From Pseudomonas xantholysinigenes (lineage in GTDB: Bacteria > Pseudomonadota > Gammaproteobacteria > Pseudomonadales > Pseudomonadaceae): DNA of 64,000 nucleotides. This document shows, one piece after another, positions 14,129-38,584 of this stretch. Numbering within the stretch: the first letter of the stretch is position 1; the number at the start of each line of letters is the position of its first letter. Position numbers and translations under genes: made by a program. The stretch is taken from assembly GCF_014268885.2 (NCBI RefSeq), contig NZ_CP077095.1, positions 1,679,501-1,743,500 of the forward strand, read 5' to 3'. The notes below the pieces were generated by a model. The model made no database searches. It was given only the letters and a program-made list of their open reading frames with translations, and was not told the DNA's origin.

Positions 14129-14415
14129 TTCATTTGCGATGTCGACGCTTATTCACCTTTCCGCCCTTACGGCGGGTTACTTTGGTCGTGGCCAAAGTAA
14201 CCAAAGCCGTGGCGCTCCATTCATCCGGCCCTACGCTTCGCTCCGGGTTCCCTCACTCCGGCCTTGCTCCCGGGAGGACCGCGCTGTAGGGCCCATCCTG
14301 GGCCCCAGCGCTTGACGGGCATCCATGCCCGTCACCTCCCTCCGCAAGGCCTGCGTTCGGCCTCCTGAAGTCGCGAAGTTAGGGGCGGCGCCTGCACTGG
14401 CGCAGCTGTCGCTAG
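14129..14415 (-). repeat. Long intergenic repeat element, copy A (type 1, minus orientation)
   Basis: About 287 bp shared with copies B (14550-14842), C (36541-36727) and D (36816-38562, split by the IS). From the outer end the order is CGATGTCGACGC, TTCACCTTTCCGCCCTTACGG, a private hairpin (arms GGTTACTTTGG 14175-14185 and CCAAAGTAACC 14192-14202), CCATTCATCCGGCCC, the palindrome around TCCCGGGA, GACGGGCATCCATGCCCGTC, and GGCCTCCTGAAGTCGCGAAG. It ends in CAGCTGTCGC, as does copy D. No coding function is evident. Confidence 0.85.
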
Positions 14416-14435
14416 TTGCATATCTGTGATCTCCA

Positions 14436-14469
14436 GGGCCCTTTCGCGGGCTTGCCCGCGAAAGGGTCG
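14436..14469. repeat. Single REP palindrome between element copies A and B
   Basis: CCCTTTCGCGGGCTTGCCCGCGAAAGGG is a compact perfect inverted repeat of the main REP class (given here by its arms CCCTTTCGCGGG and CCCGCGAAAGGG). It lies in the 134-bp centre between the two facing copies. Confidence 0.8.
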
Positions 14470-14516
14470 GAGCAGTCAATATTTAAAGAACTGCCAGAAA
14501 TCAATTTAAAACTTCT

Positions 14517-14546
14517 GCTCTTGCTCTTGCTCTTGCTCTTGCTCTT
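14517..14546. repeat. Tandem 6-mer array (GCTCTT x5)
   Basis: Five perfect GCTCTT units lead directly into CTTCTAAGCGCGCGATAGTT, the outer end of element copy B. The same junction occurs at copy C with a 7-mer GCTCTTC array. Confidence 0.9.
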
Positions 14547-14549
14547 GCT

Positions 14550-14842
14550 TCTAAGCGCGCGATAGTTCAGGCGCCACCAATTGCGACTTCAGGAGGCCGA
14601 GCGGAGTTCTTGCGAAGGGAGGTGACGGGCATGGATGCCCGTCAAGCGCTGCGCCCCAGGATGGGGCGTTCAGCGCGGTCCTCCCGGGAGCAAGAACGGA
14701 GCGAGGGAACCCCGGAGCGAAGCGTAGGGGCCGGATGAATGGAGCGAGCGGTTTTTGCCTACTTTTGCCCGCGTGCAAAAGTAGGTCGCCGTAAGGGCGA
14801 AAAGGTGACTGAATGTCGACATCATCTACGAATGCGCATAAA
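14550..14842 (+). repeat. Long intergenic repeat element, copy B (type 2, plus orientation)
   Basis: About 293 bp in the opposite orientation to copy A. It starts CTAAGCGCGCGATAGTTCAG, as copy C does, then carries the conserved blocks in order: GACTTCAGGAGGCC, GACGGGCATGGATGCCCGTC, the palindrome around TCCCGGGA, and GGCCGGATGAATGGAGCGAG. Its private hairpin has arms CCTACTTTTGC (14758-14768) and GCAAAAGTAGG (14775-14785). Then come CGCCGTAAGGGCG and AAGGTGACT. With copy A it makes a large imperfect inverted repeat. Confidence 0.85.
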
Positions 14843-14864
14843 GAGATCAAAACCCACGCTATAA

Positions 14865-14906
14865 AACCCGAACCCGAACCCGAACCCGAACCCGAACCCG
14901 AACCCG
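14865..14906. repeat. Tandem 6-mer array (AACCCG x7)
   Basis: Seven perfect AACCCG units lie just outside the end of element copy B and 76 bases before the usg ATG. The array therefore sits in the likely usg promoter region. Confidence 0.9.
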
Positions 14907-14982
14907 AACCTACCCCCCCACCCCACAATCCAAGTAAAGTGCCGCTCCCCCGCCGTACCCCTCGCAGAAAGGAACAGATCCC

Positions 14983-36360: not shown

Positions 36361-36400
36361 TTCAACTAAAACTTGATCCAAAGCCAAACTTCCCCAACGC

Positions 36401-36519
36401 GCTCTTCGCTCTTCGCTCTTCGCTCTTCGCTCTTCGCTCTTCGCTCTTCGCTCTTCGCTCTTCGCTCTTCGCTCTTCGCTCTTCGCTCTTCGCTCTTCGC
36501 TCTTCGCTCTTCGCTCTTC
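36401..36519. repeat. Tandem 7-mer array (GCTCTTC x17)
   Basis: Seventeen perfect GCTCTTC units, then GCTCTTGTTTTTGCTTTTGCTTC, lead into element copy C. Such a long perfect 7-mer array should vary in length by slipped pairing. Reading frames across it are artefacts. Confidence 0.95.
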
Positions 36520-36540
36520 GCTCTTGTTTTTGCTTTTGCT

Positions 36541-36727
36541 TCTAAGCGCGCGATAGTTCAGGCGCCACCAGTTGCGACTTCAGGAGCGAGGGGACCCCGG
36601 AGCGAAGCGTAGGGGCCGGATGAATGGAGCGAGGATTTTTTGGTTCCTTTTTGATCCTTCAAAAAGGGACCCGCCGTAAGGGCGGAAAGGTGACTATGCG
36701 TCGCCATCGCCAATGAATGAGCGTATA
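36541..36727 (+). repeat. Long intergenic repeat element, copy C (type 2, internally deleted)
   Basis: It shares the type 2 start TCTAAGCGCGCGATAGTTCA with copy B but lacks the middle (the GACGGGCATGGATGCCCGTC and TCCCGGGA blocks), joining CTTCAGGAG directly to CGAGGGGACCCCGGAGCG. It keeps its own hairpin (arms 36642-36654 and 36659-36671, 13 pairs with one G-T). CCGCCGTAAGGGCGG and AAGGTGACT follow. It faces copy D. Confidence 0.85.
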
Positions 36728-36748
36728 ACTTTCAAGACCCACGCTCTG

Positions 36749-36784
36749 AAAGTCAAAGTCAAAGTCAAAGTCAAAGTCAAAGTC
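36749..36784. repeat. Tandem 6-mer array (AAAGTC x6)
   Basis: Six perfect AAAGTC units sit between the facing ends of element copies C and D. Confidence 0.9.
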
Positions 36785-36891
36785 TATCGGCGTCGGTTTT
36801 TATAGTTGTAAGCGCATTCATTTACGATGCCGACGCATAGTCACCTTTTCGCCTTTACGTGAACTGACCCCCGAAAGTTGGACGGGGTACG

Positions 36892-37716
36892 CTATGGGTT
36901 CAGCGCTTGGGTCCGAAATTGTACCGGACTCAAGCCATTCAGTCTTAGACTTATACGCTCTTGGTTGTAGTAGGCGATGTAGTCCTCAAGGCCTGACGCC
37001 AGTTGTTCAACACTCTCAAACGATTGCAAATAGAAAAACTCGCTCTTGAGTGTGCCAAAGAAGCTTTCCATCGCGGCATTGTCCAGGCAGTTACCCTTAC
37101 GCGACATACTCTGTTGTATTTTCTTTCTGCCCAGCATATGTCGATAAGCGGGCTGTCGGTATTGCCAGCCCTGATCGGAGTGCAATATCGGTTTGTCATC
37201 TGGGTTCAGCCGCTCGAAAGCTTGCTCCAACATCGCCGACACCATCTTGAACTCAGGGCGCGGATTGATCTGATAGGCAAGAATTTCGCCGTTGTACAGG
37301 TCCATCACAGGCGAAAGAAACAGCTTCTGCCCTTTCACCTTGAACTCTGTCACATCGGTTACCCATTTCTGATTAGGGGCTTCCGCCTTGAACTCACGCT
37401 TGAGCAGATCAGATGCAACAAGCCCTTCGGAACCTCGGTAGGAGCGATATTTCTTCACTTTTACCAGCGATTTCAGATCCATTAACTGCATCAACCGCTG
37501 CACCTTCTTGTGATTGATCACCTCGCCATGGCACCCAAGCACGGCGGTGATGCGGCGATAGCCGTACCGCCCCTTATGCCTGTGATAGACACTCTTGATG
37601 CGTTCTTTGAGGGCCGCATGCTTGTCGGCCACCAAGGCTTTGCTTTGGTAATAGAAGGTACTGCGTGCCAGCCCTGCAGCACGTAACAGCAGAGCCAGTC
37701 GATGTTCATGCCTCAA
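36892..37716 (-). CDS. IS3-family transposase OrfB (DDE integrase domain)
   Basis: A 274-residue catalytic part of the transposase. The DDE triad is visible as Asp in WVTDVTEFKV, Asp in LHSDQGWQYR and Glu in AAMESFFGTLKSE, with the usual K/R spacing after. The N-terminal HTH_21-like part (ERIKSVYHRHKGRYGYRRI) is present. Its own start is a weak TTG at 37716, next to the orfA stop. It is more likely made as an OrfAB fusion by -1 frameshifting at the A6G run (37782-37788), because the -1 frame is open from there into orfB. Confidence 0.93.
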   Translation of the reverse strand: MRHEHRLALLLRAAGLARSTFYYQSKALVADKHAALKERIKSVYHRHKGRYGYRRITAVLGCHGEVINHKKVQRLMQLMDLKSLVKVKKYRSYRGSEGLVASDLLKREFKAEAPNQKWVTDVTEFKVKGQKLFLSPVMDLYNGEILAYQINPRPEFKMVSAMLEQAFERLNPDDKPILHSDQGWQYRQPAYRHMLGRKKIQQSMSRKGNCLDNAAMESFFGTLKSEFFYLQSFESVEQLASGLEDYIAYYNQERISLRLNGLSPVQFRTQALNP

Positions 37717-38255
37717 TCCTTGGACAGCCTGCGCTTTCTTGGTTGCGCAGTGCGTGGATCCGCTTGGATCAAGGCATCGAGCTTTTTTAGATAGGCATTC
37801 TCCGCACGTAAATACTCCAGCTCTTCGAGCATTTGCTTAGGTGTCAACTCAGCATCTGCAGGCTTAGCAGGGCTTACGTTGGGTTGTTCTGATGCTTTGC
37901 GGGGCATACTGGATTCTCGGGCACGATGCGGGTGAAGTGCTTCTAGTCCGCCTTCATCGTACAACCTTTTCCATTGCCTGATGCTACTCGGGCCACGAAT
38001 ATCAAACTGTATGCAGGCTTGCTGGGCTGACAGTCCGTCTTGCTCGATGCACTGCAAAACCTTCAACTTGAACTGGGCGTCGTAGTGGCTGTACTTGGTA
38101 GCCAGACCTGCAGCACCGTGTTGCTCATAGCCCTTTATCCAACGGCGCAGCAGCGATGCACTCAGGCTATGCCTCAGTGCCACCTCATGAACACTCCGGG
38201 CAGAAAGACACTCCTCGATGAGTGCTTGCTTGAGCGCTAGGTCGTATTTCGTCAT
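37713..38255 (-). CDS. IS3-family OrfA (helix-turn-helix protein)
   Basis: A 180-residue DNA-binding protein that recognises the IS ends. Two helix-turn-helix units are visible (SVHEVALRHSLSASLLRRWIKGYEQHG and SAQQACIQFDIRGPSSIRQWKRLY). A leucine-rich coiled coil near 140-165 (LEELEYLRAENAYLKKLDALI) is typical for IS150-type OrfA. The slippery sequence AAAAAAG lies in the YLKKLD codons. The stop overlaps the orfB TTG. The length of 180 residues is normal for the IS150 group. Confidence 0.9.
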   Translation of the reverse strand: MTKYDLALKQALIEECLSARSVHEVALRHSLSASLLRRWIKGYEQHGAAGLATKYSHYDAQFKLKVLQCIEQDGLSAQQACIQFDIRGPSSIRQWKRLYDEGGLEALHPHRARESSMPRKASEQPNVSPAKPADAELTPKQMLEELEYLRAENAYLKKLDALIQADPRTAQPRKRRLSKD

Positions 38256-38584
38256 GGAACACCCTCCGCTTGGGGTCAGGCGTCCAACTTTCGGGGGTCA
38301 GTTCAACGGCGAGTCACTTTTTGTCAAACGCGACAAAAAGTAACCAAAAAACGCTGCGCTCCATTCATCCGGCCCTCCGCTTCGCTCCGGGTCCCCTCAC
38401 TCCGGCCTTGCTCCCGGGAGGACCGCGCTGAACGCCCCATCCTGGGGCGCAGCGCTTGACGGGCATCCATGCCCGTCACCTCCCTCCGCAAGGCCTGCGT
38501 TCGGCCTCCTGAAGTCGCGAAGGTACGGGCGGCGCCTGGGCTGGTGCAGCTGTCGCGGGTTGGATTTGGCGCTAGCCTCTTGAT

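Follow-up and report, generated by a model that had tools for sequence, protein, structure and literature searches.

A stretch of 64,000 nucleotides of the Pseudomonas xantholysinigenes chromosome (contig NZ_CP077095.1, positions 1,679,501 to 1,743,500; the window) carries four copies, A to D, of an intergenic sequence; compared with the rest of the genome, they amount to two occurrences of a chromosomal repeat with two arms. Each unit of this repeat is made of one arm with an A-type tail and one with a B-type tail placed in opposite directions, in either of two layouts; the arms appear to encode a pseudoknotted RNA-like fold with covarying base pairs. The unit keeps a constant direction with respect to the replication fork in this genome and, with one exception, in the arms listed from three relatives, as judged from arm orientation around the predicted terminus. 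We give a probability of about one half to the reading that this is a chromosomal unit similar to the bacterial interspersed mosaic elements (BIMEs), with replication-linked entry, vertical inheritance, partial homogenisation and a selected RNA fold. An earlier note, made from the window alone, had described the four copies and a hairpin of changing sequence inside them; the probable pseudoknot, the genome-wide unit, the replication-linked orientation and the spread over the class go beyond that description.

RNA-like fold and covariation of the arms

Comparison of the sequences shows that, on the strand that runs from tail to head, a full arm encodes a fold of approximately 215 to 230 nt that includes, in this order, a branched core, a hairpin (H1) with a loop complementary to the segment just upstream, which would form an H-type pseudoknot, and a mini-hairpin. 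Covariation was evaluated in two alignments. A1 covers the core on the tail-to-head strand and includes 21 of 25 representatives, since two arms of genome G024 that lack hairpins with GGA loops, one arm with a long insertion and one shifted arm were omitted; A2 covers the H1 region and includes 44 of 64 representatives, the arms with a common insertion sequence (IS) junction in the head having been filtered beforehand. In A1, 24 of the 28 core pairs show changes on both sides, 94.4% of the cells are paired, and the covariation score is 0.592, against 0.190 in shuffled alignments and at most 0.110 with the partner slid. The corresponding values for A2 are 8 of 13 pairs, 99.0%, 0.403, 0.151 and 0.107. 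The number of pairs changed on both sides, the paired-cell percentage and the covariation score were not reached in either alignment by any of 500 shuffles, which keep the relatedness of the sequences and are not tree-aware; one of the five measures in A2, the number of further pair types, was matched by 8 of the 500. Columns 23 and 111 of A1 combine as AU, CG, GC, GU, UA and UG, and so many pair types at one position are hard to explain by descent alone.

These counts bear out the earlier proposal that selection acts on pairing rather than on sequence, and the covariation check proposed with it gave a positive outcome in aligned diverse copies. The note had restricted the conserved pairing to one internal hairpin; H1 does covary, but the pairing extends to the pseudoknot and to the branched core of about 125 nt, which covaries at least as strongly as the hairpin region. 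The folding z-scores of the core on the tail-to-head strand are −5.5 for arm A and −5.8 for arm B, and −6.6 for arm A on the other strand; the H1 stretch of arm B gives only −1.4. Thermodynamics alone leaves the strand undecided.

Pseudoknot and folding strand

Among 164 arms with a readable start, taken from this genome and its relatives, H1 was recovered in 159, in 83 distinct versions, and five lacked it; the hairpin arms differ in the way that had been noticed in the window. The loop complements a segment located just 3' of the hairpin in the head-to-tail sense, as in the loop/partner examples AAGAGCC/GGCTCTT, AGGAC/GTCCT and AAGCACC/GGTGCTT. For 68 distinct loop/partner combinations, loops over 22 nt being excluded, the mean duplex energy was −5.08 kcal/mol, compared with −3.36 ± 0.20 in 5000 permutations (p = 2e-4), a value that is optimistic because the combinations come from related arms. 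Several of the matches span only 2 to 3 bp. The 11-6-11 bp spacing of several hairpins was considered as a possible core for a site-specific recombinase, and this was rejected because the H1 loop ranges from 3 to 25 nt. A CCGG-rich palindrome of approximately 15 nt is inserted in some H1 loops (L152, L153, L156 and L157 in G017; L141 and L144 in G010; L166 in G052).

The cells of the structural pairs, read on the tail-to-head strand, contain 65 G-U and 5 A-C combinations (23 and 3 in A1, 42 and 2 in A2), the former spread over 12 pairs and the latter over 4. A G-U pair becomes an A-C mismatch when the complementary strand is read, which points to the tail-to-head strand as the one that folds; the matches to the Rfam family TwoAYGGAY described below lie on this same strand. 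The earlier note had left open the choice between an RNA and a DNA cruciform; this excess disfavours a cruciform with equal strands, and cannot tell RNA from single-stranded DNA.

A paired unit across the genome

The host genome (G000) is a single contig of 5.6 Mb, and its Asd protein shares 99% identity with the one of a P. mosselii strain. Loci were located by BLAST with arm A, the best 40 of 78 candidates being scored, together with a scan of the genome with 18-mers, which gave 27 loci and one weak site. A profile run over the fetched loci recognised at least 54 arms at at least 27 loci, besides a solitary arm, diverged in sequence, near 803 kb; these figures are a lower bound, since further diverged arms may exist elsewhere. 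The genome search that had been suggested thus extended the element well beyond the window, and relatives were found in other Pseudomonas as well. At all 27 paired loci one A-tail arm and one B-tail arm face opposite directions, as described before for the two loci of the window; at 10 loci the heads point outward (as at 14129-14842) and at 17 the tails do (as at 36541-38562). The arms, of approximately 290 bp, are mutual inverted repeats. The inner linkers are typical of the layout, and the outer ends mostly adjoin tandem arrays with units of usually 6 or 7 nt. The units of the outer arrays are locus-specific, and their sequence and number change between orthologous loci.

This organisation recalls BIMEs and REPINs, composites of repetitive extragenic palindromes (REPs), in that two related modules alternate in orientation with characteristic linkers, and A-B-A arrays occur in genome G015 (loci L112, L113 and L133). 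It differs from them in arms about ten times as long as a REP, in the pseudoknotted branched fold and in the fixed replication polarity seen in this clade. A REP is a short palindrome (about 20-40 bp) with a GTAG/CGTC tag, according to the available part of PMC3733652; with about 290 bp and a branched fold the arms are not REPs in size, in line with the earlier note, which had held that the element is not a REP. Locus L031, located between asd and the neighbouring gene in P. guariconensis, is a short near-palindrome of two heads (GCATATCCA...TGGATATGC), almost coreless, which is possibly a degenerate unit.

Orientation relative to replication

In the host genome dnaA is located at position 520 and a single dif-like site at 2,791,167. 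Arm A lies on the plus strand at 10/10 loci before dif and on the minus strand at 17/17 after it (two-sided p = 1.5e-8). In three relatives the rule was scored around the dif site of each genome: of the A arms listed, 20/20 follow it in G301, 7/7 in G396 and 27/28 in G455, so that 81 of the 82 A arms counted in the four related genomes agree with it; the B arms show the opposite polarity in G396 (9/9) and G455 (12/12). In these three relatives the A or B type was assigned from query coverage and identity, and five rows shorter than 70 bases were left uncounted; G396 and G455 start at dnaA, and the origin of G301, with a contig start elsewhere, was placed opposite dif. In G070 the six paired units all fit one switch point; dif was looked for in this genome and not found.

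The direction of the flanking genes is mixed at the 27 loci and does not explain the polarity: a crude assignment by the best-scoring rather than the nearest open reading frame (ORF) gave 9 loci −/−, 7 +/−, 7 +/+, 3 −/+ and 1 undetermined. The linker follows the arms, given that the six tails-outward loci with a readable linker carry AAAGTC before dif (2/2) and GACTTT after it (4/4), and the IS-bearing locus of the window also has AAAGTC. Since the array turns together with the arms, rewriting of the arm type alone by gene conversion is unlikely.

Descent of the loci and insertions into the arms

From 20 loci of G301, 13 have both flanks at one locus of the host genome, with a flank identity of 87 to 97%, and three of these 13 are located on the other replichore with the flanks exchanged. 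Another three loci join flanks of two host loci (L010/L012 across the terminus, L013/L014 and L006/L017), three match on one side only (one of them weakly, 73.5%), and one on neither. The rearrangement joints in G301 are found at L200, L202 and L205, L200 being the joint of L010/L012 across the terminus. Judged by their flanks, most of these units are old and inherited, and some stand at rearrangement joints. The 27 separate loci of the host genome are consequently a better count for the polarity than the related genomes, as far as each had its own insertion. Leaving out partial arms such as C, the B arms resemble each other more inside a genome (90.9 and 92.5%) than between genomes (87.8%, taking every cross comparison), and about as much as orthologs do (90.1%); for the A arms these values are 92.7 and 93.8%, 92.0% and 94.7%.

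Twelve of the 54 heads carry an IS and six another, shorter element, both inserted at one and the same position in the loop of the mini-hairpin; the scripted counts were 11, 6 and 37 intact, the IS junction of L016, shifted by one base, having been scored as intact. The IS-bearing heads are found at L004, L006, L009-L011, L015, L016, L019-L021, L024 and L025. Both IS ends are seen at the junctions, so both orientations occur, which suggests more than one insertion, and the loop is apparently a site-specific target. The shorter element, with the end AAAGGGCTGGCC and a length of about 185 bp in L008 and L012, occupies heads at L004, L008, L010, L012, L019 and L021, and in L012 it has CCCTTACGG on both sides. 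The G301 locus L196, ortholog of L004, spans approximately 600 bp and lacks the IS, which indicates that the IS copies were inserted into existing arms.

An ordinary IS remnant, a cluster of REPs or a transcription terminator, devoid of any wider meaning, might be thought of in view of these IS copies and of the inverted repeat at 14439-14466 in the A/B linker, which we take to be REP-like. We regard this explanation as highly improbable: it is contradicted by the covariation, the arms measure about 290 bp with strong structural conservation, one of their modules is widespread, and the IS of L004 entered an arm that its ortholog in G301 shows uninterrupted.

Relationship with known families

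The core aligns with Rfam RF01731, TwoAYGGAY, along both hairpins and both linkers, with 41.4 bits for arm A and 40.6 for arm B, below the cut-off of 43; the arms of L007 reach 40.6 bits. The best RF01731 match in the host genome has an E value of 3.7e-6, and other arms of this genome may exceed the cut-off. Loci L170 and L174 do exceed it, at 45.4, 43.3 and 43.2 bits, and 32 of 59 Pseudomonas genomes (the host included) gave a match at E ≤ 1e-3, 30 of them above the cut-off, compared with 0/14 control genomes. What the two have in common is a pair of adjacent hairpins with GGA loops, the AAG and CGG linkers and the strand. In the stems of these hairpins (helices 4 and 5 of A1) 11 of 14 pairs show double changes, and GGA is present in both core loops in 21/21 rows of A1. 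The differences are that the model, matched over its positions 47-111, leaves the H1 pseudoknot module uncovered, and that the window arms, besides being sub-threshold, have a second loop AGGAU rather than AYGGAY; their first loop is AUGGAU, a sequence that several relatives have also in the second. A small core of the fold is, in short, already catalogued as an RNA of unknown function. A match to a described RNA family would, according to the earlier note, have refuted its proposal, and this applies in part, since the core is a sub-threshold relative of TwoAYGGAY.

The available parts of the TwoAYGGAY literature (PMC2864571, PMC4333381, PMC11701678) do not describe a pair unit or a copy number. 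Gardner and Eldai, as far as the available text of PMC4333381 goes, predicted on motif grounds that TwoAYGGAY binds CsrA; no confirmation of this binding was met in the literature. Two repeats of P. fluorescens are of comparable dimensions in the accessible portion of Silby et al. 2009 (PMC2718517): R178, of 101 bp with 11-bp internal inverted repeats and 18, 28 and 9 copies in SBW25, Pf0-1 and Pf-5, and R200, of 320 bp with 47, 0 and 8 copies in the same strains. Compared by size only and not by consensus, they would fit the H1 module and the whole arm, respectively; that portion of the article does not mention arm pairing or polarity for them. The accessible text on a Bordetella repeat (PMC3110155) holds nothing resembling the present unit, and a literature search that met its sources mostly as listings turned up no description of the paired unit or of its replication polarity.

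Distribution in other genomes

The H1 model (R2) matched 42 of 185 genomes of Gammaproteobacteria (41 of 177 genera; the host included) at E ≤ 1e-3, and two of the positive genomes have at least 23 scored matches. The matches listed outside the host genome include 16 arm pairs with a spacing below 1.2 kb, from 7 genomes, and in every one of these pairs the arms face opposite directions with the heads outward. In 19 distant loci found with R2, the core model (R1) gave 11 matches at E ≤ 0.1, spread over 8 loci, and the Rfam TwoAYGGAY model matched in 2. The distant arms that could be evaluated were 26, and 16 of them have only the GGA-loop hairpins, 9 only a TGTYTGAG motif and one both; the motif was chosen after reading the same sequences in which it was counted. 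The 5' side of the core stem was matched by a loose motif in 12/26 of these arms, and the 3' side in 11/26. We read them as one frame with two alternative tips, in which the H1 module is evidently shared and the homology of the remainder only partly established.

A blastn search with arm A at E ≤ 1e-5 found no match among 72,556 plasmid or 50,697 phage records, and spread by plasmids or phages is not supported by these two record sets. An exact 18-mer of the arm occurs in two predicted viral contigs of IMG/VR (L212, L213).

Features of the window

The four copies described in the earlier note were all located at approximately the coordinates it gave (Table 1); D is a single copy interrupted by an IS between 36859 and 38306, and C (row L006m) has lost about 105 nt of the core. 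R2 matched all four, with no other match in the window at E ≤ 1, and R1 matched A, B and D at E < 1e-22 and gave two further matches without significance (E 0.52 and 0.91); since relatives of these copies served to train both models, the scores are not independent proof. The intergenic position given before was found for both pairs, A/B between an ORF ending at 13981 and one starting at 14983, and C/D between ORFs that end at 36266 and start at 38683. No ORF is shared by the copies, in agreement with the first description, given that the ORFs of at least 100 aa that cross B and D run in opposite arm senses; the repeats are apparently non-coding. Apart from the repeats, positions 4509-4577 match the RNA thermometer ROSE_3 (RF02523) with 72.8 bits.

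Table 1. Coordinates of the repeat units and associated features in the window
Feature	Position	Strand	Evidence or remarks
Outer tandem array, heptamers TTCGTTG / TTTGTTG, adjoining A head	14056-14110		Unit number differs in orthologous G301 locus L197
Arm A, head to tail	14129-14415	+	Folding strand is the opposite strand (predicted)
Arm A module 1: H1, pseudoknot partner and CGCC-TTAC-GGCG mini-hairpin	14150-14236	−	R2, 84.8 bits
Arm A module 2: branched core	14243-14369	−	R1, 114.2 bits
TwoAYGGAY match inside arm A core	14277-14336	−	41.4 bits, cut-off 43
Tail-to-tail linker, heads-outward layout	14416-14549		Inverted repeat 14439-14466 and CTTGCT array; other heads-outward loci similar
Arm B, tail to head on + strand	14550-14842	−	
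Arm B core	14588-14714	+	R1, 115.2 bits
TwoAYGGAY match in arm B core	14621-14680	+	40.6 bits
Arm B H1/pseudoknot module	14722-14811	+	R2, 84.7 bits
Outer GAACCC tandem array adjoining B head	14865-14911		GAACCT in orthologous G301 locus L197
Outer CGCTCTT tandem array adjoining arm C tail	36396-36525		
Arm C, B-type tail, core internally deleted	36541-36727	−	
Arm C H1/pseudoknot module	36607-36696	+	R2, 90.2 bits
Head-to-head linker array (AAAGTC)n, tails-outward layout	36749-36784		
Arm D head, A-type, split by IS in mini-hairpin loop	36816-36859	+	
IS insertion	36860-38305	−	25-bp perfect terminal inverted repeats; ACG flanking each side
IS ORF, integrase core	36892-37716		
IS ORF, helix-turn-helix	37713-38255		
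Remainder of arm D	38306-38562	+	H1 module and core
Arm D H1 module	38288-38380		R2, 52 bits; extends into IS end
Arm D core	38387-38513	−	R1, 110.3 bits
Outer GGCAAC tandem array adjoining D tail	38585-38636		

Interpretation

In the reading that we prefer, a step coupled to the direction of the fork, possibly insertion into single-stranded DNA of the lagging strand, would have spread the unit within the chromosome as a composite of the BIME/REPIN kind; the unit would now pass on by vertical inheritance, with partial homogenisation through gene conversion, and its structure would be selected as an RNA whose tip binds a protein. Sequence analysis demonstrates the fold, the pairing of the arms and the polarity within the clade; transcription, protein binding and the mechanism of entry are what this reading supposes. 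In most sampled Pseudomonas arms the tip consists of paired hairpins with GGA loops, which are typical of RsmA/CsrA sites (consensus C-ANGGAN-G), and because the arms are opposed, transcription across the locus, whatever its direction, reads one arm in the folding sense.

Several observations weigh against this reading. G015 shows no polarity (10/17) and G017 a weak one, in that 11 of 16 listed rows agree by a hand count of the RF01731 rows of 127-128 nt, as do 9 of 10 fetched loci, counted over nine pairs and one single arm; as a universal rule the polarity is rejected. The counts in the three relatives that follow it come from the best 40 of 49 (G301), of 42 (G396) and of 113 (G455) candidates, and the loci shared by descent make related genomes non-independent tests. 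As for the strand, 40 of the 65 G-U cells fall at two H1 pairs, with related rows counted repeatedly, and a folding strand would also be compatible with single-stranded DNA, RNA being the natural reading. The homogenisation of the A arms appears slight. The analysis revealed neither a mobilising enzyme nor a target duplication nor an empty site that could be dated, RAYT transposases not having been searched for. Finally, the GGA hairpins are missing from the arms of G024 (3/3 loci) and from 9 of the 26 distant arms, so that RsmA/CsrA binding is not a universal role and was rejected as such.

The strongest rival is a mobile element that acts at the DNA level, a miniature inverted-repeat transposable element (MITE) or a giant REPIN, which we hold to be a possible but less favoured explanation. 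A transposase provided in trans would recognise one strand, folded as single-stranded DNA; the covariation would reflect recognition by the enzyme, and the polarity would reflect the lagging-strand template. In its favour are the multi-copy, intergenic units of inverted arms, with BIME-like A-B-A arrays in G015, and the fixed fork polarity in this clade; the strand asymmetry fits it too, G-T being better tolerated than A-C. A pseudoknot, however, would be unusual for a DNA end, 13 of the 20 G301 loci are common by descent, and arm A had no blastn match among the plasmids and phages searched. The arms are mutual inverted repeats, as in a MITE or an IS, and target duplications are hard to see where the tandem arrays obscure the junctions; visual inspection of the asd locus among the matches listed from 80 relatives showed none. 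No autonomous copy was seen in the two long inter-arm gaps that were inspected, L146 and L182; the first contains an ORF of 342 aa that presumably resembles a transposase of the IS110 family, and the second no recognised ORF.

The paired GGA loops of the core also bring to mind RsmX/Y/Z and the CsrB-type small RNAs, which have multiple hairpins with GGA loops, and the arms could accordingly be a family of small RNA genes that sequester RsmA/CsrA, sponges like RsmZ amplified in the genome. All 21 rows of A1 have such loops, close to the consensus given above, and the motif-based prediction for TwoAYGGAY (available part of PMC4333381) points in the same direction. We consider this origin unlikely, since the inverted pairing in multiple copies is left unaccounted for, the H1 module reaches further (42 of 185 genomes), and the nine distant arms devoid of GGA hairpins carry TGTYTGAG instead.

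A somewhat less probable alternative is an element of chromosome architecture in which the polarity is kept by selection, either because recombination between units then gives only inversions symmetric to the origin and the terminus, or because the unit acts on the fork or on segregation. The orientation of all but one of the counted A arms among those listed from four related genomes, and the rearrangement joints at the elements, one of them across the terminus (L010/L012 in L200 of G301), would suit this proposal. The absence of polarity in G015 and its weakness in G017 speak against it, and since symmetric inversions preserve the polarity automatically, its persistence is no evidence of selection.

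A wider form of our preferred reading would place these units in an undescribed class of gammaproteobacterial elements: RNA repeats with a pseudoknot that are oriented by replication and always occur in pairs, in which H1 stays constant while the protein-binding tip can be exchanged (GGA hairpins or UGUYUGAG), TwoAYGGAY being only one version of that tip; the pair would be what propagates, and the direction of the fork would set its entry. We advance this form only tentatively and think it rather doubtful as a whole.

An orphan Rfam motif becomes in this way part of a larger and abundant repeat with a testable frame, which comprises a folding strand, pairing loops and a candidate RsmA/CsrA tip. 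Some units coincide with breakpoints of chromosome rearrangement, and the arm offers a single spot as target for two different inserted elements. The orientation rule, in turn, would make the entry of interspersed repeats into bacterial chromosomes testable, given that the intrinsic direction of the unit reads the coupling to the fork.

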